The notes beneath the pieces are model-generated. The model saw nothing but the letters and a program-made list of their open reading frames with translations, was not told the DNA's origin and did not search any database. Both the position numbers and the translations under genes were made by a program. This document shows, in pieces, positions 5,755 to 58,885 of a DNA stretch of 64,000 nucleotides (its first letter is position 1; every line of letters begins with the position of its first letter). This DNA comes from Fibrobacteria bacterium (lineage in GTDB: Bacteria; Fibrobacterota; Fibrobacteria; UBA11236), in contig JADGQO010000026.1 of the NCBI GenBank assembly GCA_017881725.1, positions 1-64,000 on the forward strand. The letters are read 5' to 3'.

Positions 5755-8469
5755 ATGAGCACACTAATTTCTCAAGCCCAAGCCTCCCGGGGCTTTGGCA
5801 TTCCTTACCTGTCCGGAGCGGAAATCCGTCAGGGCTTCATCGATTTTTTCGCGTCCAAAGGACACACCTACGTGCCATCCGCGCCCGTGGTTCCGCATGA
5901 CGACCCGACTTTGCTGTTCACCAATGCCGGCATGAACCAATTCAAATCCGCCTTGCTCGGGGATAACCGCGAGGGCTGGAAGCGCGTGGCCAACTCCCAG
6001 AAATGCATCCGCGTTTCCGGCAAGCACAACGACCTCGACGAGGTGGGCCGCGATACTTACCATCACACTTTTTTTGAAATGCTCGGGAACTGGTCGTTCG
6101 GCGACTACTACAAGCAGGACGCCATCGTGTTGGCCTGGGAGCTGTTGACCGAGGTTTGGAAGGTTCCCAAAGACCGGCTGTACGTCACCGTATATAAGGA
6201 CGATGATGAAGCCGAACAGATTTGGAAAACAAAAACCGATATCGAGCACAAACGCATCATGCGTTTCGCGGAAAAGTCCAACTTTTGGGAAATGGGCGAT
6301 GTGGGGCCTTGCGGACCTTGCTCGGAAATCCATTTCGACATGGGCGATCCCGCAACGCGCGATCAGACTTATGCTGATCCCATCCTTGGCGTGAACGGGC
6401 CCAATGCCCGATACATCGAATTGTGGAACAACGTGTTCATGCAATTCGAACGCTTGCAAAGCGGGGAGTTAAAGCCCCTCAAGCACAAGAACGTCGATAC
6501 CGGCATGGGGTTTGAACGCATTGTTTCCGTGATCCAGGGAACCGGGTCGAATTATGAAACGGACGTGTTCGGTCCCCTCATCCAAAAAATCGCATCCTTG
6601 TCCGGAGTCGCGTATTCGCAAGGGCCGGAAGGCACCGCCCACCGGGTCATGGCCGATCACGTGCGCGCCTTATCCTTCGCCATCGCCGACGGGGCCACCC
6701 CTGGAAACGAAGGCCGCGGATACGTCCTGCGCCGCATTCTCCGCCGCGGCAGCCGCTTCGCCCGCAACATGGGCCAACGTGAGCCTTTCCTCTGCAAGCT
6801 CGTGGCCGTCCTCGCCGAAACCATGGGCCAGGCCTATCCGGAACTGGTGCAACGACAGGCCTATATCGAACAGGTGATCCGCGCCGAAGAGGAACGCTTC
6901 ATGCGCACCTTGGGCCAGGGACTGGATCGTTTCGCCAAGATTTCCGCCGACGTGAAATCCAAGTCGGCCACTGTCATTCCCGGCGCAGACGTATTCACTC
7001 TTTACGATACCTACGGGTTTCCCACCGACTTGACGCGCATCCTGGCCGAAGAGCAAGGGCTGACCATCGATGAGGCCGGCTATACCAAACATATGGAAGA
7101 GCAACGCGAGCGGGCCCGCAGCGCGGCCAAATTCGACGGCAGCTTCGCCAGCGATGAAGGCTGGACGCTGCTCTCGCCGAGCCTGGAAACGGAATTCGTC
7201 GGCTATGCGTCGCTCGCGTCCGACTGCAAGACCTTGCGCTACCGCGAGGACAAGGACCAAGTTTTGGTGGTCCTGGATCGCACCCCGTTTTACGCCGAGG
7301 CCGGCGGGCAGGTCGGCGATACGGGAACGCTGGCATCGACGCTGAAATCCGCCACCGGTCTGCCTGCGGCCGAATTGCGCGTGACCGACACCATTAAGGT
7401 GTTCGACATGATTATCCACCGTTGCGATTTGCTGGGCGGCCTGCTCACGAAAGAGAACATGGCCTCCCTGGTCGCGAAGGTCGACGCCGATCAACGTTTC
7501 GCGATCCTGCGCAACCATAGCGCCACGCATTTGCTGCACGCGGCCCTCCGATCCGTGCTCGGTGAGCATGTGCAACAGCAGGGGTCGCGCGTTTCGCCCG
7601 ATGCGCTGCGTTTCGACTTCACGCATTTCCAAGGCGTCACGGCAGAGGAACTGCGCAAGGTCGAGGACCTGGTCAACCGTCAGGTGCAGGAAAACCTCGC
7701 GATTTCCATGTCCGTGCACGGCATCGACGAAGCCAAGCAATTGGGTGCCATGGCCTTGTTCGGGGAAAAATACGGCGACCGCGTGCGGGTGATCAAAATG
7801 GGCGGATTCAGCATGGAACTGTGCGGAGGAACCCACGCCACCGCCACGGGGCAAATCGGTTTTTTCAAGATCGTATCGGAAAGCTCCATCGCCGCCGGCG
7901 TCCGGCGCATCGAAGCGGTTACCGGTAACGCGGCAGTTACCCTGGCCCGCCGCAATTTCGACGCCCTGGCGGAAATCGCCAAGGTGTTCAAGTCCAAGCC
8001 CGGGCAGGAACAGGAGCGCGTCGCGGAAGCGGCCGCGCGCATCAAGGCGCTGGAAAAGGAAATCCTGGAATTGCGCCAAGCCCAGGCCCGTTTGCAAGCC
8101 GTTGCCTTGGTAGGCGAACGCTCCGTTCCGATGAACGGGACCACGGTGCTCATCGCTAAGTTGGATGAAAAAACCTATCCCAAGGATTTTGTAGGCCTTT
8201 TGGTCGATGGCCTCGCGTCGCAACTCCGTAACGGCGTCGCTCTCCTCACGCAAGTTTCCGGGGACTCCCTTTCCATCTATGTCGTATGCGGCAAGGAAGC
8301 TCAGACGAAAGTCAAGGCCGGGGACTTAATCAAAGCCGTCGGCCCGGTGGCGGACGCGCGTGGCGGAGGCAAACCGGATCGGGCCCAGGCCGGATCGAAG
8401 TCGCCGCAGAAGGAAGGCCTGCTCTTGGCCGAGGCCGAGAAATGGCTCAAACAGGCGTTGGGGGCTTAA
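5755..8469 (+). CDS. alaS: Alanyl-tRNA synthetase
   Basis: Full-length 904 aa; FFxxKGHTYVPSAPVVPHDDPTLLFTNAGMNQFK, HNDLDEVGRDTYHHTFFEMLGNWSFGDYYK, C-terminal LCGGTHATATGQIG. Confidence 0.98.
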   Translation: MSTLISQAQASRGFGIPYLSGAEIRQGFIDFFASKGHTYVPSAPVVPHDDPTLLFTNAGMNQFKSALLGDNREGWKRVANSQKCIRVSGKHNDLDEVGRDTYHHTFFEMLGNWSFGDYYKQDAIVLAWELLTEVWKVPKDRLYVTVYKDDDEAEQIWKTKTDIEHKRIMRFAEKSNFWEMGDVGPCGPCSEIHFDMGDPATRDQTYADPILGVNGPNARYIELWNNVFMQFERLQSGELKPLKHKNVDTGMGFERIVSVIQGTGSNYETDVFGPLIQKIASLSGVAYSQGPEGTAHRVMADHVRALSFAIADGATPGNEGRGYVLRRILRRGSRFARNMGQREPFLCKLVAVLAETMGQAYPELVQRQAYIEQVIRAEEERFMRTLGQGLDRFAKISADVKSKSATVIPGADVFTLYDTYGFPTDLTRILAEEQGLTIDEAGYTKHMEEQRERARSAAKFDGSFASDEGWTLLSPSLETEFVGYASLASDCKTLRYREDKDQVLVVLDRTPFYAEAGGQVGDTGTLASTLKSATGLPAAELRVTDTIKVFDMIIHRCDLLGGLLTKENMASLVAKVDADQRFAILRNHSATHLLHAALRSVLGEHVQQQGSRVSPDALRFDFTHFQGVTAEELRKVEDLVNRQVQENLAISMSVHGIDEAKQLGAMALFGEKYGDRVRVIKMGGFSMELCGGTHATATGQIGFFKIVSESSIAAGVRRIEAVTGNAAVTLARRNFDALAEIAKVFKSKPGQEQERVAEAAARIKALEKEILELRQAQARLQAVALVGERSVPMNGTTVLIAKLDEKTYPKDFVGLLVDGLASQLRNGVALLTQVSGDSLSIYVVCGKEAQTKVKAGDLIKAVGPVADARGGGKPDRAQAGSKSPQKEGLLLAEAEKWLKQALGA
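7924..7941. repeat. Dyad motif GGTAAC-GCGGCA-GTTACC
   Basis: Exact copy of GTAAC-N6-GTTAC. Confidence 0.85.
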
Positions 8470-9218: not shown

Positions 9219-9309
9219 GCCGCAACCGCAACCGCCCCAGGCACCACGGCGTCGGCGCGCGACGCGCCCCGAAGCGACTCCCACTCCGGCCGGATGAATC
9301 CCCCGTCGC

Positions 9310-10089: not shown

Positions 10090-10129
10090 TGGTTTCCTCC
10101 ACTCCCGGCCCCTCCAACCGATCCACGGT

Positions 10130-10611
10130 TCAGGGAACGGCTTCAATAATAGCTTGAACGCCCGATTTCAGGCAGCCTTTGTATCCGGATTTCCGCCGGC
10201 CCCCTGTAACACATCCAAAGCAGAATCCAGGGAAGCCTGCAAGGGGCGCGCGCCTGCGCCGGCCATCCGCCGCGATTTGTTCCAAGGCGTGAATCGCCGT
10301 GGCGTCGACATGATGCACGTTTTCCAACAATAGAATCAAGGCCCTGGACGCGTTTCCCGCCACCCGAATCGATTCCTCGAACCGCTGGGCCGCGCCGAAA
10401 AAAATCGATCCTTGAATGTCAAACACATCCACCCCCTTGGGATCCAGCGCTTGGCGGCCACCGCCGGTTCCAACGTCGGCGCATTCTCCACCGCCAAGAT
10501 CAGTAGAAAGGTCGCCATCAAGACGGTGATGTCGGAGCGCGGGGTTTTAAAATCTGCCGGGTATAGCCTTTGAAGGCGGTTAGGATTTTGGGGCGTTACG
10601 GAACTCGTCAT
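10130..10611 (-). pseudogene. SulP-family anion transporter remnant
   Basis: ADFKTPRSDITVLMATFLLILA in one frame followed by DPKGVDVFDIQGSIFFGAAQRFEESIR...VHHVDATAIHALEQ (STAS-like) in another; main transmembrane part missing. Confidence 0.75.
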
Positions 10612-10855: not shown

Positions 10856-10884
10856 TTGACCAGCCTAGGTGGGATTACTAAATT
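10856..10884 (+). promoter_or_regulatory. Putative sigma70-type promoter for rplM-rpsI
   Basis: TTGACC-17 nt-TAAATT, about 37 nt before the rplM ATG. Confidence 0.5.
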
Positions 10885-15571: not shown

Positions 15572-15572
15572 C

Positions 15573-17113: not shown

Positions 17114-19390
17114 TTGCGCAAATCAGGGCATTTACGAAATTGGAAATTTCTTTTGGCGGCGTATTGTCTACTGTCGCCTAACTGGGTTCATGGCGCCGGC
17201 GTGGATTTGGACAGCCTTTCCCTGAAGCGCTTGATGGATTTGGACGTCACTTCGGTTTCCAAGCGCGCCCAAAAAGTACGGGATGTCGCGACTTCGATTT
17301 ACGTCATCACGCAGGACGATATTCGCCGATCCGGGGCCACGCGTATTCAAGATGCACTGAAGCTGGCTCCCGGGGTTTGGGTGGATGAGGCCAGTTACAC
17401 CATCACCGGTGAAGGCATCCGCAATTCCGCATTCGCCTTTTCCAGTTCCCTCCTTTGGATACTCGATGGCGTGCCGATGACGGATCCCATTATCGGAGGC
17501 GTGTTCTTCAACGCGCTTGACCTTCCCCTGGAAGACATCGATCGCATCGAAATCATCAAGGGGCCGGGAGGCAGCATTTACGGAGCGAATGCGGCCACGG
17601 GCATCGTGAGCATCTTCACGAAAAGCGGAGAGGCGTCCGAAGGATTGAAAGCGTCCTTGTCGGGCGGAACCCAAAATTACCTGGCTCCGTATTTTCGATA
17701 TGGCTTCGAGGCGCGGCCGGATTTTTTCGTGACCGTTTGGGCCCGTTTGAAAACCCATGACGGTTACCGTCGCAACCCGCTCTTCGCCGGAGACAGCCTG
17801 TGGGCGCCCATCAACGGCAGCGGGGACGTGAGGACTGCCAACCAATTCCGCGGGGTCGACGATTACCAGCGCGCGCAATCCGGCGGCTTGAAATGGGACT
17901 ACCAGCCGGGTGAGAAATGGAAATGGTCCGGACAAATCCGGGATATGCATGTGAATGACGGACAATACTCCATCCAATTGACGCCCTATCCCGACTCCGC
18001 CCCGGCCACGCCGGGTGTTGTCAAAGCGCCGGACAGCGTCTATGCCAACCGCGAGGCCATGGATCAATTGGTGATACAAACCCGATTCGACGGCAGCCTC
18101 GGCACGGACAACAATTATTTCTTATCCACGTACCATTGGCGTTACCGGTATGACGTGGCTTTGGCCAGCGGATTCCTGGCGGGATTCGACATCACGGAAG
18201 TGGAAGCGCAGGACAATTTGAAATACGGCCGCCACAACGTCAGCGCCGGAGCGAATTTCCGCAGGGTCCAATACGAATTCCGCGATTTGCGGGCGACGGG
18301 ATCCATCATCGTCCAAGAGCCCGACTATTTGGCTTTTTTGGCCGGCGCCTTCCTGCAGGACGAAATGGAATTCGGCCCGCGTTGGCGTTTAACCGCCGGG
18401 GCCAAGGCGGAAACGTGGACGCCGCTGGGTTGGGTCCCGGAAATTTCCCCAAGTCTGAGGCTGGCCTTCAAGCCGAATAACGATCAAACGTGGTGGGCGG
18501 CGGCATCGCGCGGAGTCACGACCCCGGCCAACTCCCAGCGGGACATGGAGGTGCGCGTCTCGCAACTCCCGCCCACGTGGCAAAAGTGGGTATGGGGCGC
18601 GCAACCTCCGCCCGGCGCGGGAAAATGGGTGGCCCTGGTTTCCGGAGATGAGGTTCCCGTTAACTATTACACCCTGGAATGCGGCCAACGGGGATCTTGG
18701 AAGCAGCGCGTCCAATGGGACGTCAGCGGATTTTATAGCTGGGTACGCGGGCAAATCGGCCTGACTCCCGTGGATCCGACGTTTCAAACCGTTATCGCTT
18801 CCAAGGGCAACCCATCCGACTCGCTGGTTCCCTTATACAATGCCAATCTCGACGACGAGGAAACCTTCGGCGGGGAAGCTTGGCTTCGCCTATTGCCGAT
18901 GGAGGCTCTGCGGATGGAGTTCTCCTATTCTCTTTTTTGGGTTTACAATTTCGTCGGATACCCTATTCCCAATGACCCGGGCGGCCGCACGTTTCCGAGG
19001 CCCGATGAATTTAATCGTCAGACCCCCAATCATGTCCTGCGCGCCCGCGCGAATTGCGTTCTGCCTTTCGAAACCGGCTTGAACGTCAACGGCATCGTAT
19101 CGTCCCCCTTCTCGCGCGGCGAGGCCTTTAATTACGCCCTGCAACGTCCCGTCTCCCAAACCGGACGCTTTTTTGCGAATCAGGCGGTTATAGCCGATGC
19201 CCCAAGGTGGCAGTTCCAAATGGATGTTTCCTTGGAAAAAAAATTCCTCGCCGATCGCCTTACCGTGACCGCGTGGGGGCGCAATCTTTTGGCGGATCCG
19301 TTCGTGGAGGTCTTTAACCAATACGGTTGGATCAGTTATCCCCACCAAATCTATCGCACTTTTGGCATTAACCTGTCGTACCAACCTTGA
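17114..19390 (+). CDS. TonB-dependent receptor
   Basis: Signal peptide, plug domain (SIYVITQDDIRRSGATRIQDALKLAPGVWV; ILDGVPM; IEIIKGPGGSIYGANAATGIVSI), beta-barrel C-terminus. Confidence 0.9.
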   Translation: MRKSGHLRNWKFLLAAYCLLSPNWVHGAGVDLDSLSLKRLMDLDVTSVSKRAQKVRDVATSIYVITQDDIRRSGATRIQDALKLAPGVWVDEASYTITGEGIRNSAFAFSSSLLWILDGVPMTDPIIGGVFFNALDLPLEDIDRIEIIKGPGGSIYGANAATGIVSIFTKSGEASEGLKASLSGGTQNYLAPYFRYGFEARPDFFVTVWARLKTHDGYRRNPLFAGDSLWAPINGSGDVRTANQFRGVDDYQRAQSGGLKWDYQPGEKWKWSGQIRDMHVNDGQYSIQLTPYPDSAPATPGVVKAPDSVYANREAMDQLVIQTRFDGSLGTDNNYFLSTYHWRYRYDVALASGFLAGFDITEVEAQDNLKYGRHNVSAGANFRRVQYEFRDLRATGSIIVQEPDYLAFLAGAFLQDEMEFGPRWRLTAGAKAETWTPLGWVPEISPSLRLAFKPNNDQTWWAAASRGVTTPANSQRDMEVRVSQLPPTWQKWVWGAQPPPGAGKWVALVSGDEVPVNYYTLECGQRGSWKQRVQWDVSGFYSWVRGQIGLTPVDPTFQTVIASKGNPSDSLVPLYNANLDDEETFGGEAWLRLLPMEALRMEFSYSLFWVYNFVGYPIPNDPGGRTFPRPDEFNRQTPNHVLRARANCVLPFETGLNVNGIVSSPFSRGEAFNYALQRPVSQTGRFFANQAVIADAPRWQFQMDVSLEKKFLADRLTVTAWGRNLLADPFVEVFNQYGWISYPHQIYRTFGINLSYQP

Positions 19391-20433: not shown

Positions 20434-22797
20434 TCAGTCGTGAAGGCCGGACGGCAACCTGAGCGTAATCCGGGCGCCTTGGCCCGGCAACGAATCCACA
20501 TCGACTGTTCCGCCCCGCTCCTCGGCCCACTTCACCACGGCATGCATCCCCACGCCCCGTCCGGAAATCTCCGTGGCCGAATCCCGGGTCGAAAAACCGG
20601 GGAGGAAAATCAACTTTTGCCGATCGGATTCGCCCAATCGGGACAAGGTCTCGACGGAAACCAATCCCTTTGCCAACGCCTGGGAAGCCACGTGGTCGGG
20701 ATCGATGCCTGCGCCATCATCGCTTACAGTCACGTCTAAGTTACCCTGCCGTTCCTCGATGCGGATCGTAATTTTTCCGCAAGGGCTTTTGCCCAACGCC
20801 GACCGCTCCGCATCCGTTTCGATGCCATGATCGGCCGCGTTGCGGATCATATGCACCAAGGGTTCGTCCAAGGCGGCGAACATTCGCGGAGAAATTTCCA
20901 ATCCCTCCGGTTCCACTTTCAGCTCCAAGCGCTTGCCCAGGGATTCTCCCAGGCGCCCCACCATGCGGCGGTATTTTTCCGCCCATCTCCCCAAAGGGAT
21001 GGAATCGAGGTCGCGACAGGCGCGTAGCAGCCTGCGAAGCCCGTCATCCCCGCCCGTTCCAGAGCCTAAAACCGATGCGGAGGTTTTGGGTTCCAAGGCC
21101 CGCGCTAGCGCGCGCAACTCCGCAAGCCGGTGGTCCGCGATGGAAACCGCGTCGGGACCTCCCCGCGCCATTTCCCCGCGCAAACCCAGGAGGCGAGACT
21201 GTTCCGAACGCATATCCATCAGGAAGGCCTGGAATCCGGACCAGGGATTCGTGTCCATACTCCCGCCGGGCCGCGCGACCAGCCACTCTTCCGCCATCCT
21301 CATGACGCGCGCAAGCGCCTCGAACCCATAAGTCGCGGAGGTCCCTTTCAAGGTGTGCAGATCGCGGGACAACGACTGGACGAGGCTACGATAAGCGCCG
21401 ACCTCCGCCGTCGATAAGCTATCCGCCGCCACGCTCATACGTTGAATCCGCTCCTCCAAATCGTCCAGGAATTCGGGAATGGATTCACCATACCGTACCA
21501 TGCCCAGAATGGCTTTCACCTCGTCTTCATGACGCTGTTTCTGATCGCGGATTGCCTGCTCCACGCGCCTGGACTCGGTGACGTCCTGCACCAGGATCAT
21601 CAGTTTCTCCAACCTTTCGTCGTGATTCAACATTTTCTGGTAACCCACGATAACCGTGCGTTCGCGGCCGTCGGCGCCGTCCAAGCGCAATTCGCGCACC
21701 GGACATACCCGCAAAATCTTTTCCCAACGGAGCGACCGGTGTTTGGACTTCACCATTGCGAACCAGTCCATCCACTCGGACAGGGCCGCCGCATCCAAAT
21801 GCAGCAGCTCCGCAAGCGACTTTTTGGAGACGTCTGCGACGCCCAGAACGGCATTGGTGGACAGGGCGTAATCCGGATTCACTTTTCCATCCAAACCGAT
21901 GGTGAACAATCCCTGCTCGATATGATCGAGAATATCCTTGATTTCCCGAATCTTGTCCTGGACCATCTCCTCCAGGCGCTCCGTGTAATCCTTTACCGTC
22001 CGGCGCATGGAATCGAAATCCGCCGCCAGGAGCGCGATTTCATCTTCTCCGGTAACCTCCAGGGGACGGGCGTAGTCGCCGCGCGCGATGGCGTTGGCCG
22101 CTGTCTGCAAAGCTTCGATGGGGCGCGTGATGCGCTTGGCCTGCCGCCTGGCAGCCAAGTAAGCCAGCCCAATGGCGAGGGTGCCCAACATAACCAATGC
22201 GCCCAACATTTTAACGAGGGATTGCCGGGCCTCCGCTGCCGCCGCCGCGATGGCGTTTTCCATGAGCGCCGTGGTAAGTCCGTAGCGTACCGAGCCCATA
22301 CGACGGCCATCCACCATGACCGGCGCCGCGAATTCATAAACGTCAACGCCGGCGGTATGCGACCACCGGTGAGTCGCGCCGGGTACCGAAGAGGCCCAAA
22401 TGCTTAGGGAATCCTCCAAGAAGTAGGCGGACTTGACCAAGCCGTCCGGGTGCAGCGAATCGGCGAAAGCCCACGGCCTCCTTCTTTCGTCCATGTAGAT
22501 TCCGTAAACAATGTCACGGTCCGAGGAGACGGTATTGGCAATAATCGACGCGACTCCAGAGAAGGAATTGTCGCCGACCATGCCCGACAACGCGAGCGCA
22601 TTATTCGCGGCCAGCATCTGGCCTTTGGCTAGGAGTGTATTGCGGATGGATGAGACCGCCGCCGCCTTTTGACGTTGGGATAAGGACACATTGAGCAATA
22701 TGACGATGGCCAGGAACCCGATCAAGGTGGAGGCCAGCACCGTGACGGAGCTGACCAGCAACTTCCGCTCGATGCCTTGGCCGGGACGGGCGCTCAT
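20434..22797 (-). CDS. Membrane sensor, CheA-like histidine kinase (TM-sensor-HAMP-PAS-Hpt-HATPase, no evident CheW-like domain)
   Basis: Two TM segments, HAMP-like region, Hpt region with LHTLKGTSATYGF, HATPase HMIRNAADHGIE...DDGAGID...GRGVGMHAVV; ends directly after the ATPase domain. Confidence 0.85.
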   Translation of the reverse strand: MSARPGQGIERKLLVSSVTVLASTLIGFLAIVILLNVSLSQRQKAAAVSSIRNTLLAKGQMLAANNALALSGMVGDNSFSGVASIIANTVSSDRDIVYGIYMDERRRPWAFADSLHPDGLVKSAYFLEDSLSIWASSVPGATHRWSHTAGVDVYEFAAPVMVDGRRMGSVRYGLTTALMENAIAAAAAEARQSLVKMLGALVMLGTLAIGLAYLAARRQAKRITRPIEALQTAANAIARGDYARPLEVTGEDEIALLAADFDSMRRTVKDYTERLEEMVQDKIREIKDILDHIEQGLFTIGLDGKVNPDYALSTNAVLGVADVSKKSLAELLHLDAAALSEWMDWFAMVKSKHRSLRWEKILRVCPVRELRLDGADGRERTVIVGYQKMLNHDERLEKLMILVQDVTESRRVEQAIRDQKQRHEDEVKAILGMVRYGESIPEFLDDLEERIQRMSVAADSLSTAEVGAYRSLVQSLSRDLHTLKGTSATYGFEALARVMRMAEEWLVARPGGSMDTNPWSGFQAFLMDMRSEQSRLLGLRGEMARGGPDAVSIADHRLAELRALARALEPKTSASVLGSGTGGDDGLRRLLRACRDLDSIPLGRWAEKYRRMVGRLGESLGKRLELKVEPEGLEISPRMFAALDEPLVHMIRNAADHGIETDAERSALGKSPCGKITIRIEERQGNLDVTVSDDGAGIDPDHVASQALAKGLVSVETLSRLGESDRQKLIFLPGFSTRDSATEISGRGVGMHAVVKWAEERGGTVDVDSLPGQGARITLRLPSGLHD

Positions 22798-29792: not shown

Positions 29793-30449
29793 ATGACCGA
29801 CTCGCATATGGATGATATTCAAGATGACAAACCCCTCTCCGGCGATTCCGGCCCGGCCCAGGAGATCGAAGAGGAGTTCGAGGAAGAAAGCGCCCTGCCG
29901 GCTGCGCCCGTGAGTACCGCGGCCGATAAGGACGAGGATGATTTATGGGATTCGGACGACGAAGAGGAAGCCGGTGAAGCCGCCGGATCCGCTGCCGCCG
30001 AACCCGCGATGCCGACGACCACTGCGAAGAAAGCCGCCGCGACCAAGAAGGTCGCCGCCGTGAAAAAATCCGCGCCAGCTAAAAAAGCCCCCCCTGCCAA
30101 AAAACCAGCGCCGGTTAAAAAAGCTTCCGCCGGCAAAAAAGCCGCGCCCGCTAAAAAAGCCGGGTCCGCCAAGAAAGCGGTAGCCCCTAAGGCAACAGCC
30201 AAGAAATCCGCACCGGCTAAAAAAGCCGCCCCGAAAGCCAAAGCGAAGGGAAAAGGTCCCGCCAAAAAGACGGGGCCCGTCCAAAGGCCGGGGGCCGCAA
30301 AAAAGGCTGGACCGATAAAAAAAGCCGGGGCCGCAAAAAAAGCGGCCCCGAAATCCAAGGCAAAAGGCAAAGCACCCGCGAAGAAAGCCGCACCCAAGCC
30401 GAAAGCAAAAGCCAAAAGCGTCGGCAAGGGAAAGAAAAAGAAGAAGTAA
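29793..30449 (+). CDS. Histone H1-like Lys/Ala/Pro-rich protein with acidic N-terminus
   Basis: Long (P)AKKAA(P) repeats ending in KGKKKKK, N-terminal EEEFEEES/DEDDLWDSDDEEE. Confidence 0.85.
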   Translation: MTDSHMDDIQDDKPLSGDSGPAQEIEEEFEEESALPAAPVSTAADKDEDDLWDSDDEEEAGEAAGSAAAEPAMPTTTAKKAAATKKVAAVKKSAPAKKAPPAKKPAPVKKASAGKKAAPAKKAGSAKKAVAPKATAKKSAPAKKAAPKAKAKGKGPAKKTGPVQRPGAAKKAGPIKKAGAAKKAAPKSKAKGKAPAKKAAPKPKAKAKSVGKGKKKKK

Positions 30450-30461
30450 CTTAGACGTTAC
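30446..30461. repeat. Dyad motif GTAAC-TTAGAC-GTTAC
   Basis: Exact copy; overlaps stop codon of the H1-like gene. Confidence 0.85.
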
Positions 30462-38044: not shown

Positions 38045-38065
38045 TGCCGGCTCCGAGGTAACACT

Positions 38066-39241
38066 TTGGCTACGGTATCATCCATGTCACCTCGCAACGA
38101 GCACCCTTCGGACGGCGCCGGAGTTTCCCCTCCCGCGCATGGGAACGCGAAGCGCAAGGCCGCCTATGCCATGCTTCCGGGCCAAGATGATCTAGGTCAA
38201 CCCATATTCTCCGTACTGGTCAAACGCACCTACGACATCGTTCCGGATAAGCCCGTCACGCGCGCGCAAAAAGACGAGCCGCTTACCGAAATTGATCGCT
38301 ATTACGATATGGGCGATCCGCAAACCTCCACGGTCCAATTCGAAAGTGATTTGGTCCCCTACAAGGCCCTGACCGATGTGGTCTTCATCGGCAAGGCGCT
38401 GGCACCGGAGGGCAAGCCCGTATACGGCATGGACGTGGGCATCCAGGTGGAAGGCTTGGGCGCGAAAATCGTACGCGTAATAGGTCCGCGGCGTTGCGTT
38501 TATCAGAACGGCCGGCCGCCCATCTTCACGCCGCCCGAGCCGTTCACGGAAATGGAAATCCGTTACGACAATGCCTACGGGGGCAAAGACAAGAAAAGCC
38601 TGCCGGATTTTCCTTTCCATTATCCGCGCAACGACATGGGCAAGGGCTTCGCTCTGAAAAACCGGAAGGACTTGATCGAGGGCATGGAATTGCCCACCAT
38701 CGAGGATCCAGCCGATATGCTGACTCCGGATCGCATCATCATCGATGGACCCGAGAACTGGCATAAGGCGCCCATGCCCTTTGGACTGGGCTGGTTCCCG
38801 CGCACGGGCTATCCGCGCGCATTCTACGCGGGCTCGGTGCCGGGTTTCATCTATCCCGGCACGGTGACCAAGGAGGAATTCCTCGGTTACGTCGTAAAGG
38901 ATCATATCGCCCTGGCCCGCCGGTTTAAATTGCCGGGCTTTGATCCCCGCTTCCTGCAAGGTGCGTCCCAAGGCCTGTCGTTGCCGCGTCTGGCGGGTAA
39001 GGAAACCTTGAAGTTACGGGGCCTTACCGTGGAAGGCATGCTGAAATTTTCCCTGCCCGACGAAATGCCCAAGCTGCAAATGGACATCGGCTTCGGAGCC
39101 AAGGACATGGAACCGGTCCTGGATACCGTTTGCATCCGCGGCGAGGAGCGCCAGGTGGATTTGGTGTGGCGCGGATCGCAGGTCTATCCGGGCCTGGATT
39201 GGCTGCCGGAGATGACGACGCTCGTGGTCAAGGTGGATTGA
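38066..39241 (+). CDS. DUF2169-family T6SS adaptor-like protein
   Basis: LVKRTYDI; YDNAYGG; NDMGKGF; VDLVWRGSQVYPGLDWLPEMTTL. Confidence 0.88.
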   Translation: MATVSSMSPRNEHPSDGAGVSPPAHGNAKRKAAYAMLPGQDDLGQPIFSVLVKRTYDIVPDKPVTRAQKDEPLTEIDRYYDMGDPQTSTVQFESDLVPYKALTDVVFIGKALAPEGKPVYGMDVGIQVEGLGAKIVRVIGPRRCVYQNGRPPIFTPPEPFTEMEIRYDNAYGGKDKKSLPDFPFHYPRNDMGKGFALKNRKDLIEGMELPTIEDPADMLTPDRIIIDGPENWHKAPMPFGLGWFPRTGYPRAFYAGSVPGFIYPGTVTKEEFLGYVVKDHIALARRFKLPGFDPRFLQGASQGLSLPRLAGKETLKLRGLTVEGMLKFSLPDEMPKLQMDIGFGAKDMEPVLDTVCIRGEERQVDLVWRGSQVYPGLDWLPEMTTLVVKVD

Positions 39242-40345: not shown

Positions 40346-40744
40346 ATGACCACCACCTATTCGCCCACGGGAGGACGCTTTATCTACATCTTCGCCGGAC
40401 TGATGATCGCCGGAGTGATCCTCTGGTACGCCTACCGCTTCGCAGACGGCGGCTTCCTGGCCGAACAAGAGGCGCAAGCTTCCGTGCTTGGCAAGGAGCA
40501 TGTCCCGCCAAGTGAGAAATCCATGCTGCAGAATATCGGCGGCGTGAACCAATTCGTGAAGGTGGCCATTCCGGAAACCTGGTTGTTGAACCTGGACATC
40601 GCCGGAAAAACCGCGCAAGCGGCCGTCGACCAGGAAGAGTTCCGAAAACGGATGACGGGGGAATCGGTCAAAGTGCGGTTCAAGCGAAAGCGCATTTCGG
40701 GTAACTTACAAGTTACCCAGTATCTCGGAAAGGAAGGCGGCTGA
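40346..40744 (+). CDS. Small membrane-anchored protein in T6SS cassette
   Basis: Single N-terminal TM helix (FIYIFAGLMIAGVILWYAY), tightly spaced with neighbours. Confidence 0.7.
   Translation: MTTTYSPTGGRFIYIFAGLMIAGVILWYAYRFADGGFLAEQEAQASVLGKEHVPPSEKSMLQNIGGVNQFVKVAIPETWLLNLDIAGKTAQAAVDQEEFRKRMTGESVKVRFKRKRISGNLQVTQYLGKEGG
40699..40718. repeat. Dyad motif GGGTAAC-TTACAA-GTTACCC
   Basis: Exact copy with longer arms. Confidence 0.85.
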
Positions 40745-40745: not shown

Positions 40746-41549
40746 ATGCCCCTCTTTCCCGCCGTCACCATGGGCACGGCCATCGTGGGCTTGGATATCC
40801 ACGCCCAAATCATCCCTCCCGCGCCCGCGCCCATACCCACCCCGGAGCCGTATGCCGGTTCCGTCTTCATGTGGATGACGCCGAAATTCCCCATGGGCAA
40901 CGTCTTCATCAACAGCAAGCCCGCCTGCGCGGTCGGTGCGATGGGATATTCCATGCACGTCCCCCTCGGGGCGCCGGTGCTGCCCACCAATCCCTCTTAT
41001 TGGGCTAGGTACCTGACCCATGTGGCCATGGGCTTAACCCTGGCCGGCCTCACCATCTTCGCCAACATGGCGATCGCGGCGCTGTCTTCGCTCCTGCCCT
41101 TGCCCAAGGCGGCGGAATCTTTTGTTAAAGACGTCACGGGCATCGACACGACGGACGCGTTGACATTTTGCAATACCACCATGACGGCCTTCGCCTCCTT
41201 CACGCAATGGCAGACCTGGGTTAAACTGTTGATGCCGCCCATGCCATTTCCGGGTGCGCAAGGCTCCACGGCGGTAGGTAGCCCCAATGTTACGGTAAAC
41301 GGCGGAGCGCTGGCTTTTTGCGCGCCGTTGATGGCCACGTCTTGCAGCGATATTCCCGTGGTTCCAAACGCCGCTACGCTGGGATTTTCCAACGTGATGG
41401 TGGGCGTGAGCGTGGCCGCCTTGGTGCGGGGGTTGGCTGTGAACGCGGCGAAGGCGGGGATTGCCAAGGGGCTGAGCGCGGGCGTGGCGAAGTTGACGGC
41501 GCCCCCGGCCAAACCCGTGGAAGGCCAGGAGGATTGTGGATGCGGATGA
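40746..41549 (+). CDS. DUF4150/PAAR-like protein with hydrophobic segments
   Basis: NVFINSKPACAVGAMGYSMH; GSPNVTVNGG; location between DUF2169 and RHS genes. Confidence 0.75.
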   Translation: MPLFPAVTMGTAIVGLDIHAQIIPPAPAPIPTPEPYAGSVFMWMTPKFPMGNVFINSKPACAVGAMGYSMHVPLGAPVLPTNPSYWARYLTHVAMGLTLAGLTIFANMAIAALSSLLPLPKAAESFVKDVTGIDTTDALTFCNTTMTAFASFTQWQTWVKLLMPPMPFPGAQGSTAVGSPNVTVNGGALAFCAPLMATSCSDIPVVPNAATLGFSNVMVGVSVAALVRGLAVNAAKAGIAKGLSAGVAKLTAPPAKPVEGQEDCGCG

Positions 41550-47005: not shown

Positions 47006-48163
47006 TTGATCTACTTCGACCAAAACGCCACCACTCCCCTGGACCCGCGCGTGCTCGCGAAAATGTTGCCTTATCTGAAAGGAAAATGGGGCAACCCCTC
47101 CAGCCGCGACCATGCCTTTGGATGGGATGCGCAGGAGGCGGTCGAAGCCGCCCGCATGGAGGCTGCGGCTCTCATCAACGCGTTGCCCAATGAAATCGTT
47201 TTCACCAGTTGCGCCACGGAAAGCATCCATCTGGGACTCCACGGTCTCTTCCCTGTTCACGCGTCCATCAGCACGGGATTTGTCACCTCAAGCGTCGAAC
47301 ATGAAGCCATACGAGCCTCCTGCAAGGCTCTTCGCGAGCGCGGCCGAACATTGAAAACTCTACCCGTCGACTCCCAAGGACGATTAGACCCAGCGACAGT
47401 TGAACGCGCCTTGATCTCCCAGTCGACGAAAGTATTGAGCCTCATGGCCGCCAACAACGAAACCGGCGTACTCTTCCCCATCCGCGCATGCGCCGCCATC
47501 GCCCATGCCCACGGCGCGATCTTCTTCACCGATGCCGCCCAAGCGCTGGGAAAAATCCCCCTCGACGCCGCAGCCGACGGATTCGACCTCGCCGCCTTTT
47601 CCGCCCATAAGCTGGGCGGCCCCAAAGGCGTGGGCGCTTTATATATCAAAGGCGGACCGGGCGCGATTCCGCTGGAACCGTTATTCCCCGGCGGCGGCCA
47701 AGAAGGCGGGCTGCGGGGCGGCACGCTGAATGTCCCCGGCATCGTTGGATTCGGCGAAGCCTGCCGCCTGGCCGGATTGGAAATGACCCAGGAAACCTCC
47801 CGGTTACGGTCGCTACGTGATCATTTGGAACAATCCTTGTTGTCACGCTTCACGCAAATCCGCATCAACGGCTCCGGCTCCGAACGCCTCGCCAATACGT
47901 CCAACCTTTGTTTTCCCGGCATCGACGCACGTGCCCTGATCCGCGACATGCACGATGTCGCCGTTTCCACGCGCTCGGCCTGCAGCAGCGGCTCCTCCGA
48001 ACCCAGCCATGTTTTGAAAGCCATGGGCTTGTCCGACGAAGACGCCTTCGCCTCCATTCGTTTCAGTCTGGGAAAATCCAATACCAAGGAAGAAATCGAT
48101 TTGGTGATCGAAAAGGTGTCGATGTCGTACGCCAAACTTCTTGGCATGGGGAATCCGATTTGA
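47006..48163 (+). CDS. NifS/IscS-type cysteine desulfurase
   Basis: IYFDQNATTPLDPRV; SAHKLGGPKGVGALYIK; STRSACSSGSSEPSHVL; TTG start. Confidence 0.92.
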   Translation: MIYFDQNATTPLDPRVLAKMLPYLKGKWGNPSSRDHAFGWDAQEAVEAARMEAAALINALPNEIVFTSCATESIHLGLHGLFPVHASISTGFVTSSVEHEAIRASCKALRERGRTLKTLPVDSQGRLDPATVERALISQSTKVLSLMAANNETGVLFPIRACAAIAHAHGAIFFTDAAQALGKIPLDAAADGFDLAAFSAHKLGGPKGVGALYIKGGPGAIPLEPLFPGGGQEGGLRGGTLNVPGIVGFGEACRLAGLEMTQETSRLRSLRDHLEQSLLSRFTQIRINGSGSERLANTSNLCFPGIDARALIRDMHDVAVSTRSACSSGSSEPSHVLKAMGLSDEDAFASIRFSLGKSNTKEEIDLVIEKVSMSYAKLLGMGNPI

Positions 48164-48861
48164 CCCTAGAAGTCGAATCGGCCATGCAGGCGGCCATCGC
48201 CGATACCTGGGAAACCTTGCGGTTACGGGTAAAGAATTACCGGTTCACGGCTTTCGCATCGCTCGGCCTGGCGGCCACCATCTTAGTTGCAGCGATATGG
48301 CTCCGGACCCCCTGGGTTCTGGTCTTAGGCCTGGTTTTTTTCCCCCTGGGCGCGGTTTTTGTCTGGCGCGATCAATGCGCTGTGTTCGATTGGGAGGAAC
48401 GCATCTTCAAGGCATGGGCAGAATCCGGTCGGCTTGCTCGGGCGCGTGCGCAAGGAGGTCCTGAAACTGAATCCCTTCCCAAATCGGATTTCGTGATGGG
48501 AATTTTCATTCCCGCTATCGCCAATCAACCGCATCGATTATCCAATTCGTTGAAAAGCATGGTCGCAAACCTGCCTGCTGATCCGGATTATCTTCCTCCG
48601 CAAAATGAACAGATTCAAAAGGTGTTTCGCGATTATTATACCCGGCGAAGCAATCAGGAAACTCGCTTGCTACGTCGCCTTCTGCGTATAGTCTTTTTAG
48701 TGACAATACCCGTGTCCTACGTGTATTTCAGACCATTTACAATATCAATAGTTGCGGGGACATCAATTTTAGCACTAGTATTTTTCGGCGTTGAAATCCT
48801 ACTTGCGCCTTGTGTGCGCTGGCATCATCGAAAATCTGCGGAAAAAATAGGATTGGAATAA
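48160..48861 (+). CDS. Hypothetical membrane protein
   Basis: Four predicted TM stretches; TTG start overlapping preceding stop (TTGA). Confidence 0.6.
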   Translation: MTLEVESAMQAAIADTWETLRLRVKNYRFTAFASLGLAATILVAAIWLRTPWVLVLGLVFFPLGAVFVWRDQCAVFDWEERIFKAWAESGRLARARAQGGPETESLPKSDFVMGIFIPAIANQPHRLSNSLKSMVANLPADPDYLPPQNEQIQKVFRDYYTRRSNQETRLLRRLLRIVFLVTIPVSYVYFRPFTISIVAGTSILALVFFGVEILLAPCVRWHHRKSAEKIGLE

Positions 48862-48925
48862 GAGAGCGTTTGACCTGACGGGTCCCCTAGTTTACGTAGC
48901 ACATCAGTTACCCAAATCATGTCTT

Positions 48926-54331: not shown

Positions 54332-54341
54332 AGGAGTCCTG

Positions 54342-55436
54342 ATGGGTAAGCCTGCGGCCCGCATGGGCGATCTCACTGCGCATGGCGGCACCATCATATT
54401 GGGCACGCCGACTATTTTAATCGGCAAGATGCCGGCCTCCGCTCTCGGCGACATGCACACCTGTCCCATGTGCACGGGCCCGGTGCCGCATGTGGGCGGC
54501 CCCATCCTGCTCGGCAGCACCGGAGTTTTTGTCGGGAAGAAGCCCGCCGCCCGCATTTCCGATCAAGCCTTATGCGTGGGACCACCTTCCATGAATGCCA
54601 TGGGCTGCTTCACGGTGTTGATCGGGGAAGTCGGCAGCGGGTCGCAAGCCGGCGCCGCCGAAGCCGCTTCCTCATCGGCCGCCGCCAACAAGACGGGCCC
54701 CAAAGCCATCAAACCCTTTCCTCTCTCCGAACCTCCGGAAGCGCCGCCGCAAGTCCATAGCGTGGAATTCGAATTCGTGGACTCGGCCGGAAAACCCTTG
54801 GGCGGCATCCCGTTCACCATGAAGGATCCGGACGGCCAGGACATTGTCGGCGTCAGTAGCATGGACGGCAAGGGGTATTATGGCGGTTACGTCCAGACCG
54901 GTAACTTCACGGTTACGGTCCCCGAATTGTCCGGCGCCAAATGGGACAAGCCGGAAATCGCCGCCTCGGAAAAATGCAGCTGGTCCGTCACGGCGGATGG
55001 CTTTGAGGACGGCGCGCAGGCGTGGATCAGCATTTACGGCGTGGGCGAAGGCGGTTTAAGGATGATGGTGAGCACGGAGGAGATGAAAGTCTCGGGGGGA
55101 AAGGTCACGGGCGCTTGGGACGTGAAAGCCGCGCTGGTTGACGAAGACGGGACCGGAACCCACAAACCGGAATTAGAAACGTGCGAATCATTCCAAATTC
55201 TGATCTGCGTGGGACAATGCGTGGCGGTCAGCCCGATTTTGAAAGTGCATGATACGGTGGACATCGAATTGACCGGCGACGGCGGCAAGCCGCGCAAAAA
55301 TACACCTTACACCCTGACCTTGCGGGACGGCACGGTACTGACAGGCAAGTTGGACGGACAAGGCAAAGCCAAGCACGAGAAGGTTACGCGGGGCCGATTC
55401 AAAGTGGAGTTCGGGCCCAGCCCGGCGGAAGGCTGA
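54342..55436 (+). CDS. PAAR-domain protein with Ig-like C-terminal extensions
   Basis: KPAARMGDLTAHGGTIILGTPTILIGKMPAS...ARISDQALCVGPPSMNAMGCFTVLIGE; YTLTLRDGTVLTGKLDGQGKAKHE. Confidence 0.85.
   Translation: MGKPAARMGDLTAHGGTIILGTPTILIGKMPASALGDMHTCPMCTGPVPHVGGPILLGSTGVFVGKKPAARISDQALCVGPPSMNAMGCFTVLIGEVGSGSQAGAAEAASSSAAANKTGPKAIKPFPLSEPPEAPPQVHSVEFEFVDSAGKPLGGIPFTMKDPDGQDIVGVSSMDGKGYYGGYVQTGNFTVTVPELSGAKWDKPEIAASEKCSWSVTADGFEDGAQAWISIYGVGEGGLRMMVSTEEMKVSGGKVTGAWDVKAALVDEDGTGTHKPELETCESFQILICVGQCVAVSPILKVHDTVDIELTGDGGKPRKNTPYTLTLRDGTVLTGKLDGQGKAKHEKVTRGRFKVEFGPSPAEG
54901..54916. repeat. Dyad motif GTAAC-TTCACG-GTTAC
   Basis: Exact copy, inside PAAR gene. Confidence 0.85.
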
Positions 55437-55437
55437 T

Positions 55438-57099
55438 ATGGCGGAAGGCGACGGACACTCCGGCACAGCCGCGCGCTTCAGCACGGCGGCGGTGCATATC
55501 GTATTCCAAATGCGCCCCGGCACCACGGCCAATCGCCGCATCACGACCGGCGGAGACGCAACGCTTACCTTACATTCCGGAGCGGTCTCGCAAGTGCAAG
55601 CGGTGGACGGTATTTATCATTTCGACATGCCCGCGGGCGAAGAAGCCGTGCTCGAATTGTTCGGCACGCAATTCCGCGTGGTGCGCGTGAACGGCATCGA
55701 TCCGGATCCGACGGGCGAAAACACCATAGTAGTCTGGGACGGAACCCTGCGGCCCAACACGGGTTTGGAAGGCCAACTCCAGCGCCTGCAAATCCTAGGC
55801 TATTATTGCGGGGCCGTGACGGACGCCATGAACGATATTGCGGAACGCGCCATCCTGGAATTCCAGGCGGATAACGGTTTGGTCATCGACGGCGTGTCCG
55901 GCAACCATACACGCGATAAAATCGCCGAAATATTCGGCCGCGTGGGTAACATGAACGGTACCCATCAGCCCCTTAACCGGCGCTACCTGGCTTTTTTCGA
56001 AAGGGCCAATGTCGGGCCGTCACAACGGAATTCGCCGCAAATCGATTTCCGAGGCGGCGAGGCCATGAAACTGTCCCTGCCCGCTCCAGCAACCGATGGG
56101 GCCACGTCCATGACCTACCTACTGGGTTGCACGCCGGTCCACCTGGACGAAGCCTCCTTTCCCTTGCACCTGACGTCACGTGGCGGTAACGGTATCCTTA
56201 CGGTTACGACGGCAATCGAACCCACCCGCAACGACATGTTCGAATTCCGGGCCGTGGCGCAGGGCGATGAAGTATTGGAAGTGCATCAAGGCTCCGCAGC
56301 GGGTCCCCTAATCGCCACTTTGGACGTCCATGTCGTGCCCTTGGTCAACGTGGAACTTTGGGGCCATTTGCTCACGGTCACGGACGCAGCCGGGGCCCAG
56401 CTGGCGGATCCGCCGTTGTGGACGCAAGCTGAAGCGCAAGCCTTGATCGACAGCATCAACGATATCTGGAACCCGGTGGGCGTTCGCTTCGTGTTCCGCG
56501 GCTTCGAGTCCCATGACGTGCAGCAACCTCAGGCCGGGACCATCGCGGACGATTATATCCACCTCCATCTCCGTTCCCAAGCCATCGCTCGAAGCCTCAA
56601 CCGCCGCGGAGTGATGAACGTCTACTTTACCCAGCTGTTGAGCATGACTTTCACCAACGCCGACGGAGTCCCGGAAACCATGGCGCCGCTGGCGCATGCA
56701 GGCAACCGGTGGGCGTTTAATCCCTCCGCCGTTTTTACAAGCAAGAGCAGTGCCTTCAATATGGGCCGCGTCCTGGCCCACGAATTCGGACATATGCTCC
56801 GGCTTACCCGCGCGCAATACGCCCACACGGATGATCGCGGCGTCGCGACCCCGTGGCGCCACGACCTTTGGTCGCGCATGCGCATGATGTCCAAGTACGT
56901 GAACTATAATCCGCATAACCCCGAGCGTGGCTGGCAGAATCTCACTTACGGTTCGGACGATCAGAATTTCATGCTCGCGGGGGATTTGATTTCCGTGAAG
57001 GATTTTCCGAATGACGGCACGGATGGCGAACTGCAAAGGTCGCGCGCAAGCGTAAGTCTGCGCCCATACGCAACCCACGGATTACCATTGAATGCTTAA
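55438..57099 (+). CDS. Candidate T6SS effector: peptidoglycan-binding-like region plus zinc metallopeptidase
   Basis: LQRLQILGYYCGAVTDAMNDIAERAILEFQADNGLVIDG (PG_binding_1-like); LAHEFGHMLRLTR (HExxH). Confidence 0.75.
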   Translation: MAEGDGHSGTAARFSTAAVHIVFQMRPGTTANRRITTGGDATLTLHSGAVSQVQAVDGIYHFDMPAGEEAVLELFGTQFRVVRVNGIDPDPTGENTIVVWDGTLRPNTGLEGQLQRLQILGYYCGAVTDAMNDIAERAILEFQADNGLVIDGVSGNHTRDKIAEIFGRVGNMNGTHQPLNRRYLAFFERANVGPSQRNSPQIDFRGGEAMKLSLPAPATDGATSMTYLLGCTPVHLDEASFPLHLTSRGGNGILTVTTAIEPTRNDMFEFRAVAQGDEVLEVHQGSAAGPLIATLDVHVVPLVNVELWGHLLTVTDAAGAQLADPPLWTQAEAQALIDSINDIWNPVGVRFVFRGFESHDVQQPQAGTIADDYIHLHLRSQAIARSLNRRGVMNVYFTQLLSMTFTNADGVPETMAPLAHAGNRWAFNPSAVFTSKSSAFNMGRVLAHEFGHMLRLTRAQYAHTDDRGVATPWRHDLWSRMRMMSKYVNYNPHNPERGWQNLTYGSDDQNFMLAGDLISVKDFPNDGTDGELQRSRASVSLRPYATHGLPLNA

Positions 57100-57943
57100 G
57101 GTCACCGCTCTATTGACCGCCATGCTACTGTCGGCCGGAACAGGAAAAGGAAACCCCATGGAACAAGCCAGCATCAAAGCGCGCATCGAAAAGGCGGATC
57201 GCACTCTCATGAAAGGGTTGGACTCAGGCATGGCCGGGGACTTCGCCTTCCTGGCCGGCTATCATCCTGCAACACTCAAAAGCCGAGAGCTGGTGCTGGA
57301 TATCGTCGAAACCTTCTTTACCGATTGGAGTTTCGAGGTCCTCTTCCAAGATCTGCATGACAAGGACGAGTCCATCCAATGCCGATCCGCGGAAATCCTT
57401 TCCGAGCGCGCCCGTCCCAAGGACGGCAAACGGCTTTTGCAAGAACTGGAACAAAGGTACACGCAACCGATATCGCATTTACCCAATCGCGAGATCGTTC
57501 TGGCAGTCGGCAATTCCAATGACAGCTCGGCGATGGAACCGCTTTTAACCTTGCGCAAAAAAGAAAAGGACCGCGAAGCCCTGGAAGGCTACGATATGGC
57601 CCTGGCCAAGGTCGGCTATATCAAGGAAATACGTAAGCTTGAATTCGCGCTGGAGCATGGACCCGCTCCCGACAAAGCAAAAGCCCTGACCACGCTCCGA
57701 TATGTGAACAAACCGGAATGGATCCCAAAAGTGATCCCGCTCCTGACAAATAAAATGGTCGCCCGCCAAACATCCTTAGGTCCCGCGACTTTTCATATCC
57801 GGGTTTGCGATGAGGCCATCGCCACGCTGGGTACCATTGATCCGGCCAAGAAAATTCCCTTCGAAGTCTCATCAATCTTCGGCAATCCTTTCAGCGACGA
57901 GCAAGTACGTCAAGCCCAACAGGCTTACGGCCTCAATAAGTAG
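57092..57943 (+). CDS. Secreted HEAT-repeat-like protein, candidate immunity
   Basis: N-terminal signal-like segment, helical repeats, 8-nt overlap with the metallopeptidase gene. Confidence 0.65.
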   Translation: MLKVTALLTAMLLSAGTGKGNPMEQASIKARIEKADRTLMKGLDSGMAGDFAFLAGYHPATLKSRELVLDIVETFFTDWSFEVLFQDLHDKDESIQCRSAEILSERARPKDGKRLLQELEQRYTQPISHLPNREIVLAVGNSNDSSAMEPLLTLRKKEKDREALEGYDMALAKVGYIKEIRKLEFALEHGPAPDKAKALTTLRYVNKPEWIPKVIPLLTNKMVARQTSLGPATFHIRVCDEAIATLGTIDPAKKIPFEVSSIFGNPFSDEQVRQAQQAYGLNK

Positions 57944-57949
57944 CCCGCC

Positions 57950-58885
57950 ATGCCCAAGTTCAACGGAAAAACCGACTCGCCGCTGCAAATCAAATTGAAG
58001 TCCGCCATCCTCGAGGCGCGCTGGGGCGAATTCGAAGTGGCCCAAGGCGGTCGCGTGCAAATCGAAGTCGTCACAGCCTTCGTTTCCGACGGCTCCACGG
58101 TGAAGTTCAGCCTGAAGGATAAAGAAGGCGCCGCCATCGATACAGTGACCGGAAAAATCTACGCGAATCTTTATCGCGGATATTATACCGTGACCAAGCC
58201 CAATAAGACCGGAGCCATGACCTTCGAAGCGGAGCTGCCTGATCACAATGCCAAGGGCAAATCCGGATTCATCAAAGTATCGCCTCCGGTGAAAATCACG
58301 GAACTGAAAATCCTCGACGGCTCCGGTAAGGAGCTGAAAGAAATCGCCAAGGAAGCCATTCTGCAAATGTCCGCCAAAGTAGGCGGACCGCCGGAGGGCA
58401 CGGTTTGCGATTTCGTGATGTACTGCACCAATGGTCCCATGCAACCACAGCCCACCTTCACGGGCCGCGCGAAAATCGCGGACGGCAAAGCGGTTTGCCA
58501 ATGGAAGCGGAAAGCCCCGCAACAAGAGCCGCATGTCCACGTGCAATCCGACTTGAATAAATACGGGGAAGACTATCATACCCTGACCTACCACTTTGAA
58601 ATTTCCTGCCTGGGCATGACTGCCGCCTCCAAGCCCGTGGACTATGTGAGCTGGCTGGAAATGCATTTCGGCGATTTGCGCGGTAAGGTAACCTTGGTGT
58701 TACCCGATGGATCGGAGAGCAGCAAGGACATTCCGGAGGACGGGGTGCTGAAGCTAGAGAAGCCGAAAGCCGGCGGGGTGATGATTAAGAAGATCGAGCC
58801 GAAGGATGGGACGGCGGGGGAGAAGAAGGGATCTGGAGGCAAACCCAGCGACGAAAACACCAATAAAAATCCGAAAATTGATTGA
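57950..58885 (+). CDS. T6SS-cassette-associated protein of unknown function with Ig-like C-terminus
   Basis: Close spacing in the VgrG-2 cassette; LRGKVTLVLPDGSESSKDIPEDGVLKLEKPKAGGVMIKKIEP. Confidence 0.6.
   Translation: MPKFNGKTDSPLQIKLKSAILEARWGEFEVAQGGRVQIEVVTAFVSDGSTVKFSLKDKEGAAIDTVTGKIYANLYRGYYTVTKPNKTGAMTFEAELPDHNAKGKSGFIKVSPPVKITELKILDGSGKELKEIAKEAILQMSAKVGGPPEGTVCDFVMYCTNGPMQPQPTFTGRAKIADGKAVCQWKRKAPQQEPHVHVQSDLNKYGEDYHTLTYHFEISCLGMTAASKPVDYVSWLEMHFGDLRGKVTLVLPDGSESSKDIPEDGVLKLEKPKAGGVMIKKIEPKDGTAGEKKGSGGKPSDENTNKNPKID
58687..58704. repeat. Dyad motif GGTAAC-CTTGGT-GTTACC
   Basis: Exact copy, inside last gene of VgrG-2 cassette. Confidence 0.85.

Follow-up and report, generated by a model that had tools for sequence, protein, structure and literature searches.

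MatP, SlmA and Noc are dimeric proteins that organise the chromosome and bind to dispersed palindromes (matS in the case of MatP), with tens of sites each, located in or outside the terminus (Ter) region. The uptake signal sequence (USS) of Haemophilus and the DNA uptake sequence (DUS) of Neisseria are short asymmetric words with about ten specified bases that occur in one to two thousand copies and are tolerated in genes. The highly iterated palindromes (HIPs) are short and GC-rich and occur together with cognate methyltransferases (PMC4390886). EspR of Mycobacterium tuberculosis, a dimeric regulator of the helix-turn-helix type, serves as a nucleoid-associated protein and has many intragenic sites (PMC3315491). 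Here we describe the gapped dyad GTAAC-N6-GTTAC, which was noticed in a 64,000-nucleotide stretch of a Fibrobacteria bacterium genome (the window; contig C115:1-64000 of genome G000, which comprises 5.22 Mb in 235 contigs). The dyad was found to be iterated throughout this genome, conserved in place among related genomes and frequently arranged in tandem. As judged from these sequence features, it is probably the genome-wide site of an abundant dimeric protein that occupies the chromosome and helps to organise it.

Abundance, architecture and conservation of the dyad

A total of 513 exact copies were found in the G000 genome compared to four of the reversed pattern, which served as the control for the exact and one-mismatch counts. 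With up to one mismatch allowed, the numbers were 1,569 and 135 respectively, and the excess of exact, one- and two-mismatch copies leads to an estimate of about 1,800 sites. A preliminary description of the window had reported six exact copies with a fixed spacer of six nucleotides, and all six lie at the coordinates that it gave. The twelve one-mismatch sites that it named are the complete set in the window, which therefore holds 18 sites when up to one mismatch is allowed. The peak at this spacer is sharp, as a scan of spacers 0 to 30 in the window gave six copies for spacer 6 and either none or one for every other spacer. In 423 kb of G000, 48 copies were observed where 0.16 would be expected from the half-site frequencies (309-fold at spacer 6); the other top-scoring 5-mer dyads were the same motif read in a shifted register, and no unrelated dyad reached 9-fold enrichment. 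Dinucleotide shuffles of the window contained no copies of the motif in 100 runs. The enrichment also withstood a codon-preserving shuffle of 1,008 called genes, in which peptides and codon usage were kept: a mean of 0.8 and a maximum of four copies were obtained in 60 runs, compared to 98 observed. Copies of GTAAC-N6-GTTAC thus lie far above expectation genome-wide, as is typical of an iterated palindrome. The gene calls here and below are our own.

The 18 sites of the window are as follows (no strand is assigned to them); the relatives mentioned are other genomes of the same genus and of its sister genus.

7925-7940: exact site GTAACGCGGCAGTTAC in alaS, specific to G000, the position being empty in five genus relatives and a sister-genus genome
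11174-11189: one-mismatch site with a GTACC half
18130-18145: one-mismatch site with a GTACC half
20729-20744: one-mismatch site with a GTCAC half
30446-30461: exact site across the stop codon of an H1-like gene, in a convergent gene gap
31311-31326: exact site in a protein kinase gene (gene on the minus strand)
38058-38073: one-mismatch site with a GTAGC half on the opposite strand
39002-39017: one-mismatch site with a GAAAC half
40701-40716: exact site in a small membrane-protein gene of the VgrG/RHS cassette
41278-41293: one-mismatch site with a GTAGC half
47792-47807: one-mismatch site with a GAAAC half
48211-48226: one-mismatch site with a GAAAC half, intergenic by our gene calls
48896-48911: one-mismatch site with a GTAGC half, intergenic by our gene calls
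54901-54916: exact site in a PAAR-protein gene
55946-55961: one-mismatch site
56186-56201: one-mismatch site, overlapping the 56192 site with a shift of 6 bp
56192-56207: one-mismatch site, overlapping the 56186 site
58688-58703: exact site in a cassette gene, in the other reading frame (VTLVLP)

The H1-like gene (29793-30449, plus strand), whose stop codon lies within an exact copy, encodes a protein with an acidic N-terminus and a basic C-terminus and has no Pfam match. The region from 35930 to 58885 contains two VgrG-like genes together with DUF2169-like, PAAR and RHS-like genes (assigned by eye) and represents a type VI secretion effector cassette. This cassette is locally dense in sites, as 12 of the 18 window sites are found there. 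The higher density that the preliminary description had noted between 38 and 59 kb is real within the window (12 of 18 sites compared to 5.9 expected, P = 0.004), although the region was picked post hoc and the scatter of sites over the genome is close to Poisson.

The tolerated departures from the consensus are graded. Among the copies in G000 with one altered half and spacer 6, the most common variants were GTAGC (43), GTATC (25), GAAAC (21), GTACC (19), GTCAC (16) and TTAAC (12), whereas each change at C5 accounted for only one or two copies and the changes of G1 to A or C for none to two. The same set leads in G002, which represents another species, with GTACC (20), GAAAC (19), GTATC (18) and GTAGC (17). 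Preferences extend into the flanks and the spacer, with G or C favoured at position -1 and C or T at -4, and with T avoided at -2 and A at the second spacer position.

Sites also pair side by side with a period of 17 bp. The tandem GTAAC-N6-GTTAC-N-GTAAC-N6-GTTAC, with up to three mismatches allowed, was found 66 times in G000, 5 times in G001, 33 in G002, 25 in G003, four in G004, 42 in G005 and twice in the sister-genus genome G009, the controls giving zero or one in each case. As the half-sites are 11 bp apart, which is one helical turn, the spacing, the graded tolerance and the adjacent pairing together form the trace expected of a dimeric DNA-binding protein with cooperative neighbours. 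At locus L034:252-295, two near-identical copies lie 28 bp apart (GTAACCGACAAATTAC and GTAACCGACAAGTTAC) and represent a local duplication of a site. The only viral contig with an exact tandem (L333) was dismissed, as it carries no site beyond this single tandem of two identical 17-bp units.

The preliminary description had proposed that orthologous positions in relatives be compared, and the sites proved to be conserved beyond control dyads. In 377 kb of blastn alignments (75% identity) among genus members and G009, 66 out of 150 site observations (44%) were still a site with at most one mismatch in the aligned partner, compared to 122 out of 964 control dyads (13%; odds ratio 5.4); the corresponding P of 1e-17 should not be taken literally, as pairs were counted in both directions and across several genomes. 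In conserved sites, 4.5% of core positions are changed, compared to 23% of spacer positions. Imperfect halves are either kept as such (GTATC..GTTAC in both G000 and G004) or swapped for one another (GTACC for GTATC). Turnover of sites does occur, as seen from the alaS site at 7925, which is restricted to G000.

The demand for the motif can be traced in protein sequences. The peptide pattern GNxxVT occurs 48 times in the 1,008 called genes compared to 4.1 expected, an excess of about 12-fold, and it is spelled GGT AAC N6 GTT AC in 39 of these 48 cases where codon usage predicts 0.56. This excess and the near-exclusive use of the motif spelling indicate that a DNA-level pressure shapes the protein sequence, and selection on the motif is strong enough to alter the encoded proteins. 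It had been considered earlier that a GNxxVT peptide might contribute to the repeat. The peptide is indeed in excess, although the causation is reversed, as it is over-represented due to the DNA motif. The broader explanation that codon usage, chance or a recurring GNxxVT protein motif generates the copies takes its appeal from the many coding copies that read GGT AAC N6 GTT ACC. It can practically be dismissed, as the codon-preserving shuffle refutes it, the peptide is encoded almost solely by the motif spelling, and copies also occur in a second reading frame and in intergenic DNA. Coding copies use frames 0 and 1, and the third frame would bring TAA in frame. A gene of 3,456 amino acids (L016:6727-17097, minus strand) holds five exact copies in two reading frames.

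Distribution of the sites among and within genomes

A comparison of AlaS assigned the organism to the class Fibrobacteria. The distribution was analysed in 168 Fibrobacterota genomes, including six of the window's genus (G000-G005) and those of a sister genus (G006-G009). The motif rises above control only in the six genomes of the genus, which contain 513, 83, 252, 210, 60 and 311 exact copies respectively, and in G009 with 23. The remaining sister-genus genomes (G006-G008) and all the other Fibrobacterota genomes hold zero to six exact copies, which is the control level. With one mismatch allowed, the genus genomes contain 655 to 1,569 copies compared to 75 to 135 for the control, and G006-G008 contain 19 to 25, which is below their own controls.

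Most of the sites are found within genes. Of the 137 exact sites in 1.33 Mb, genes hold 100 where 117 would be expected. Tandem gaps hold 21 (10.2 expected), convergent gaps 12 (2.9 expected) and divergent gaps three (4.3 expected). When one-mismatch sites are included, convergent gaps hold 19 sites in 28 kb compared to nine in 42 kb of divergent gaps (P = 0.004). This preference for convergent gaps, together with the lack of a preference for promoters, suggests that an occupied site can be tolerated at the ends of genes, or is of use there, and is disfavoured at their starts. The genome-wide scatter is close to Poisson in the fetched stretches of G000 and G002, with 14 pairs closer than 400 bp in G000 compared to 25 expected, and it gives no support to a strictly regular spacing of sites.

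Site density climbs with local GC content (Spearman 0.50, P = 1e-16 in G000; 0.33 in G002), whereas control dyads fall slightly. The lowest-GC bins contain restriction-modification and similar genes, and the sites therefore seem to be rare in recently acquired DNA. The earlier suggestion of a xenogeneic regulator site is thus disfavoured. A stretch of 23 kb in G002 (contig C14:205591-228915, L293-L294) was found to be free of any site with up to one mismatch; it carries flagellar genes and outer-membrane proteins and has a GC content of 0.576 compared to 0.611 for its contig.

A probable bound protein and the alternatives to it

The motif has many sites that lie mostly off promoters and throughout the genome, as the sites of nucleoid-associated proteins do. 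In the explanation that we prefer, an abundant dimeric sequence-specific protein would coat the chromosome at about 1,800 places in the manner of a nucleoid-associated protein. One subunit would recognise each GTAAC half-site, in which G1 and C5 are almost always required, and a second dimer would be able to sit beside the first at 17 bp. Its role would be structural, in the organisation of domains or loops, rather than the regulation of promoters. The preliminary description had offered a nucleoid-organising or global DNA-binding protein among several options, and this option is the one that gains support, from the peak at spacer 6, the graded mismatches, the 17-bp tandems and the conservation in place, whereas its modification-target and xenogeneic options lose ground.

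The main rival is a DNA-uptake or other transmission-drive sequence, where a preference for motif-bearing DNA in uptake or in repair lets copies accumulate, not all of which need be useful, as for the USS and DUS. The near-Poisson scatter mostly within genes, the convergent-gap preference, the protein sequences bent by the motif and the rarity of sites in low-GC, probably acquired DNA are equally consistent with such a drive and with selection for binding. We nevertheless consider it unlikely, as the motif, a strict inverted 5-6-5 dyad, has the hallmark of a dimer and is not an asymmetric word in one orientation, it is not evident what the 17-bp tandem pairs would do in uptake, and the imperfect half-sites are themselves conserved in place. 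An RNA hairpin with a 5-bp stem and a 6-nucleotide loop acting in transcripts would account for an inverted repeat of which some copies lie near gene ends, but such an element would tolerate other loop lengths, yet spacers 4, 5, 7 and 8 have no exact copies. G-U-compatible changes of the end pair are nearly absent (GTAAT, 2), and pairing at exactly 17 bp fits the binding of double-stranded DNA, which leaves the hairpin very improbable.

Two further explanations are both improbable, though less so than the hairpin. One is a methylation-linked, HIP1-like palindrome, in which a bipartite adenine methyltransferase and methylation-coupled repair create and keep the copies. A gapped palindrome that has an adenine in both halves is similar to Type I or Type IIB modification targets, cyanobacterial HIPs accompany their cognate methyltransferases (PMC4390886) and G000 has N6_Mtase genes. 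However, N6_Mtase (the Type I or HsdM type; other methyltransferase families were not searched) had no match in G002, G003 and G004, which are 96-98% complete and hold 60 to 252 exact copies, or in G009. A cognate enzyme of this type is thus missing from four of the seven motif-bearing genomes, and adenine methylation was rejected as the explanation on the ground that N6_Mtase is not common to the carriers. The frequent, graded and conserved mismatches in one half are also unlike the strict recognition of a Type I enzyme, and the bipartite modification target proposed earlier is disfavoured by the same two observations. The other is an ordinary transcription-factor regulon with unusually many operators. 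A few sites do lie just upstream of genes, such as the one located 72 bp upstream of gyrB, but exact sites are not concentrated in the divergent gaps that contain promoters (3 compared to 4.3 expected), while convergent gaps hold 12 compared to 2.9 expected and 100 out of 137 sites are in coding DNA.

For the reader of the motif we propose, tentatively, a solitary protein of the XRE family encoded on the same contig:

C115:69652-69915 (L032:5652-5915), minus strand: candidate 87-amino-acid XRE protein, 5.7 kb past the end of the window

The candidate emerged from a scan of roughly one quarter of the genome with a home-made helix-turn-helix matrix and a single subsequent search for the distribution of four proteins. 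It consists of a lysine-rich N-terminal tail, a Cro/C1 helix-turn-helix and a strand-like C-terminal LKVKI end, and its match to Pfam HTH_3 (46.3 bits, cut-off 23) places it in the XRE (Cro/C1) family. Out of the 168 genomes, close orthologues (at least 63% identity) were found only in G000-G004 and G009, that is in six of the seven motif-bearing genomes, and none was found in the motif-less G006-G008, which are 98-100% complete. The helix-turn-helix core is identical at 59 of 61 positions between G000 and G002, compared to a median of 66% and a 99th percentile of 95% for orthologue identity, and the recognition stretch TKRTAISRIENHADDIKL is invariant in the genus. The sequence of the tail varies, and 8-10 Lys or Arg residues are kept within its 25-30 residues (seven in G009). 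The closest relative in PDB is C.Esp1396I, whose base-contacting R35 and T36 align with R53 and T54 of the candidate. The neighbours of the candidate (an outer-membrane protein, a DUF3592-like membrane protein and a dehydrogenase subunit, assigned by eye) are kept across the genus. No toxin or endonuclease gene adjoins it, whereas one would be expected beside the gene of a HipB/HigA antitoxin or a controller protein (C-protein), and the HipB models score far below their cut-offs (29.3 compared to 79 and 34.5 compared to 71.65).

Several observations weigh against this assignment or against the function proposed for the sites. The candidate was not found in G005, which has 311 exact sites. Contig C252 of this genome (last match near 9.8 kb) contains two genes from one side of the locus, and the XRE gene and the dehydrogenase gene beyond are missing; as the XRE gene and its other neighbour are missing together, as expected at a contig break, its absence is probably due to such a break. 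Weaker relatives (53-57% identity) occur in G063, G066, G080 and G167, all of which are without the motif, and no site lies near the promoter of the candidate itself, which gives no sign of autoregulation. C.Esp1396I reads GAC-TATA-GTC, which differs from the motif in both spacer and bases. Given that about a quarter of the genome was screened and four proteins were profiled, there may be other proteins with an equally good fit to the distribution. The structural role, for its part, is argued solely from the scattered, non-promoter positions of the sites.

Four other candidates were rejected. The CRP family, whose site in Escherichia coli has the same 5-6-5 geometry, has orthologues with the canonical RET/RES..R helix in the motif-less G007 and G008. 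Proteins with the Fis-type HTH_8 domain, considered for a TyrR-like site geometry, occur in 5-25 copies in every genome, those listed being mostly of 350-730 amino acids, and form no genus-specific set. A protein that combines AT-hooks with a helix-turn-helix (L195:9865-10944, minus strand, contig C63 of G000) is full length in G000 only, and relatives of its helix-turn-helix also occur in motif-less genomes. This protein has 359 amino acids, with the GRP motifs KRGRPPG, KRGRPRK (twice) and KPGRPPK around a transposase-like helix-turn-helix, and its gene lies near a low-GC stretch that bears an N6_Mtase gene. A MerR-like DNA-binding protein, possibly with a PAS domain (L173:11759-12307, minus strand, contig C41 of G000), is 92-96% identical within the genus, which marks it as another regulator under strong constraint, and is absent from G009. 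The genes beside the strongest tandem sites include no clear binder.

Comparison with known systems

The USS and DUS words and the motif are alike in having about ten specified bases, in copy number and in their presence within genes; they differ in that the former are asymmetric whereas the motif is a gapped dyad with tandem pairing. From the sites of MatP, SlmA and Noc it differs in number, with about 1,800 sites, and in consensus and spacer. The matS consensus GTGACRNYGTCAC, which is restricted to the terminus region, has another half-site and spacer, and the motif scatters in a near-Poisson manner in the fetched stretches. The short TTTGC-type consensus of EspR is not reported to have been driven up in its genome, and both its dimerisation domain and its site architecture are different.

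The nearest solved relatives of the candidate are the controller proteins of restriction-modification systems, such as C.Esp1396I, and the antitoxin HipB. C.Esp1396I binds as two side-by-side dimers with strong cooperativity on a 35-bp operator. C-proteins and HipB regulate one operon beside an endonuclease or toxin gene, whereas the candidate is solitary and would serve about 1,800 sites. The complete scenario is slightly more doubtful than the assignment of the candidate itself: a small solitary HipB- or C-protein-like XRE protein with a basic tail would have turned into a genus-specific chromosome organiser with about 1,800 conserved sites, forcing GNxxVT and VTxxL peptides into unrelated proteins.

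Iterated palindromes (HIP1) and a helix-turn-helix nucleoid-associated protein (EspR) are already known. The literature searched contained neither the string GTAAC-N6-GTTAC nor a genus-specific palindrome that is gapped, capable of tandem pairing and as dense as this one while its carriers share no N6_Mtase-type methyltransferase, and the motif would be, as far as we found, the first chromosome-wide binding site described in Fibrobacterota. HIP1 (GCGATCGC) and the alternative cyanobacterial HIPs share with the motif their genome-wide iteration, their mostly genic location and their restriction to particular lineages. The motif is unlike them in its free 6-bp spacer, its graded half-sites, its tandem pairs and its carriers that have no common N6_Mtase-type methyltransferase. 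If our explanation is true, the motif would stand alongside HIP1 as a clear case of one binding site under genome-wide selection that reshapes coding sequence, with a plausible protein reader in place of a methyltransferase. Closely related genomes lack both the motif and the candidate, and this would make it possible to test directly why iterated palindromes accumulate in genomes.

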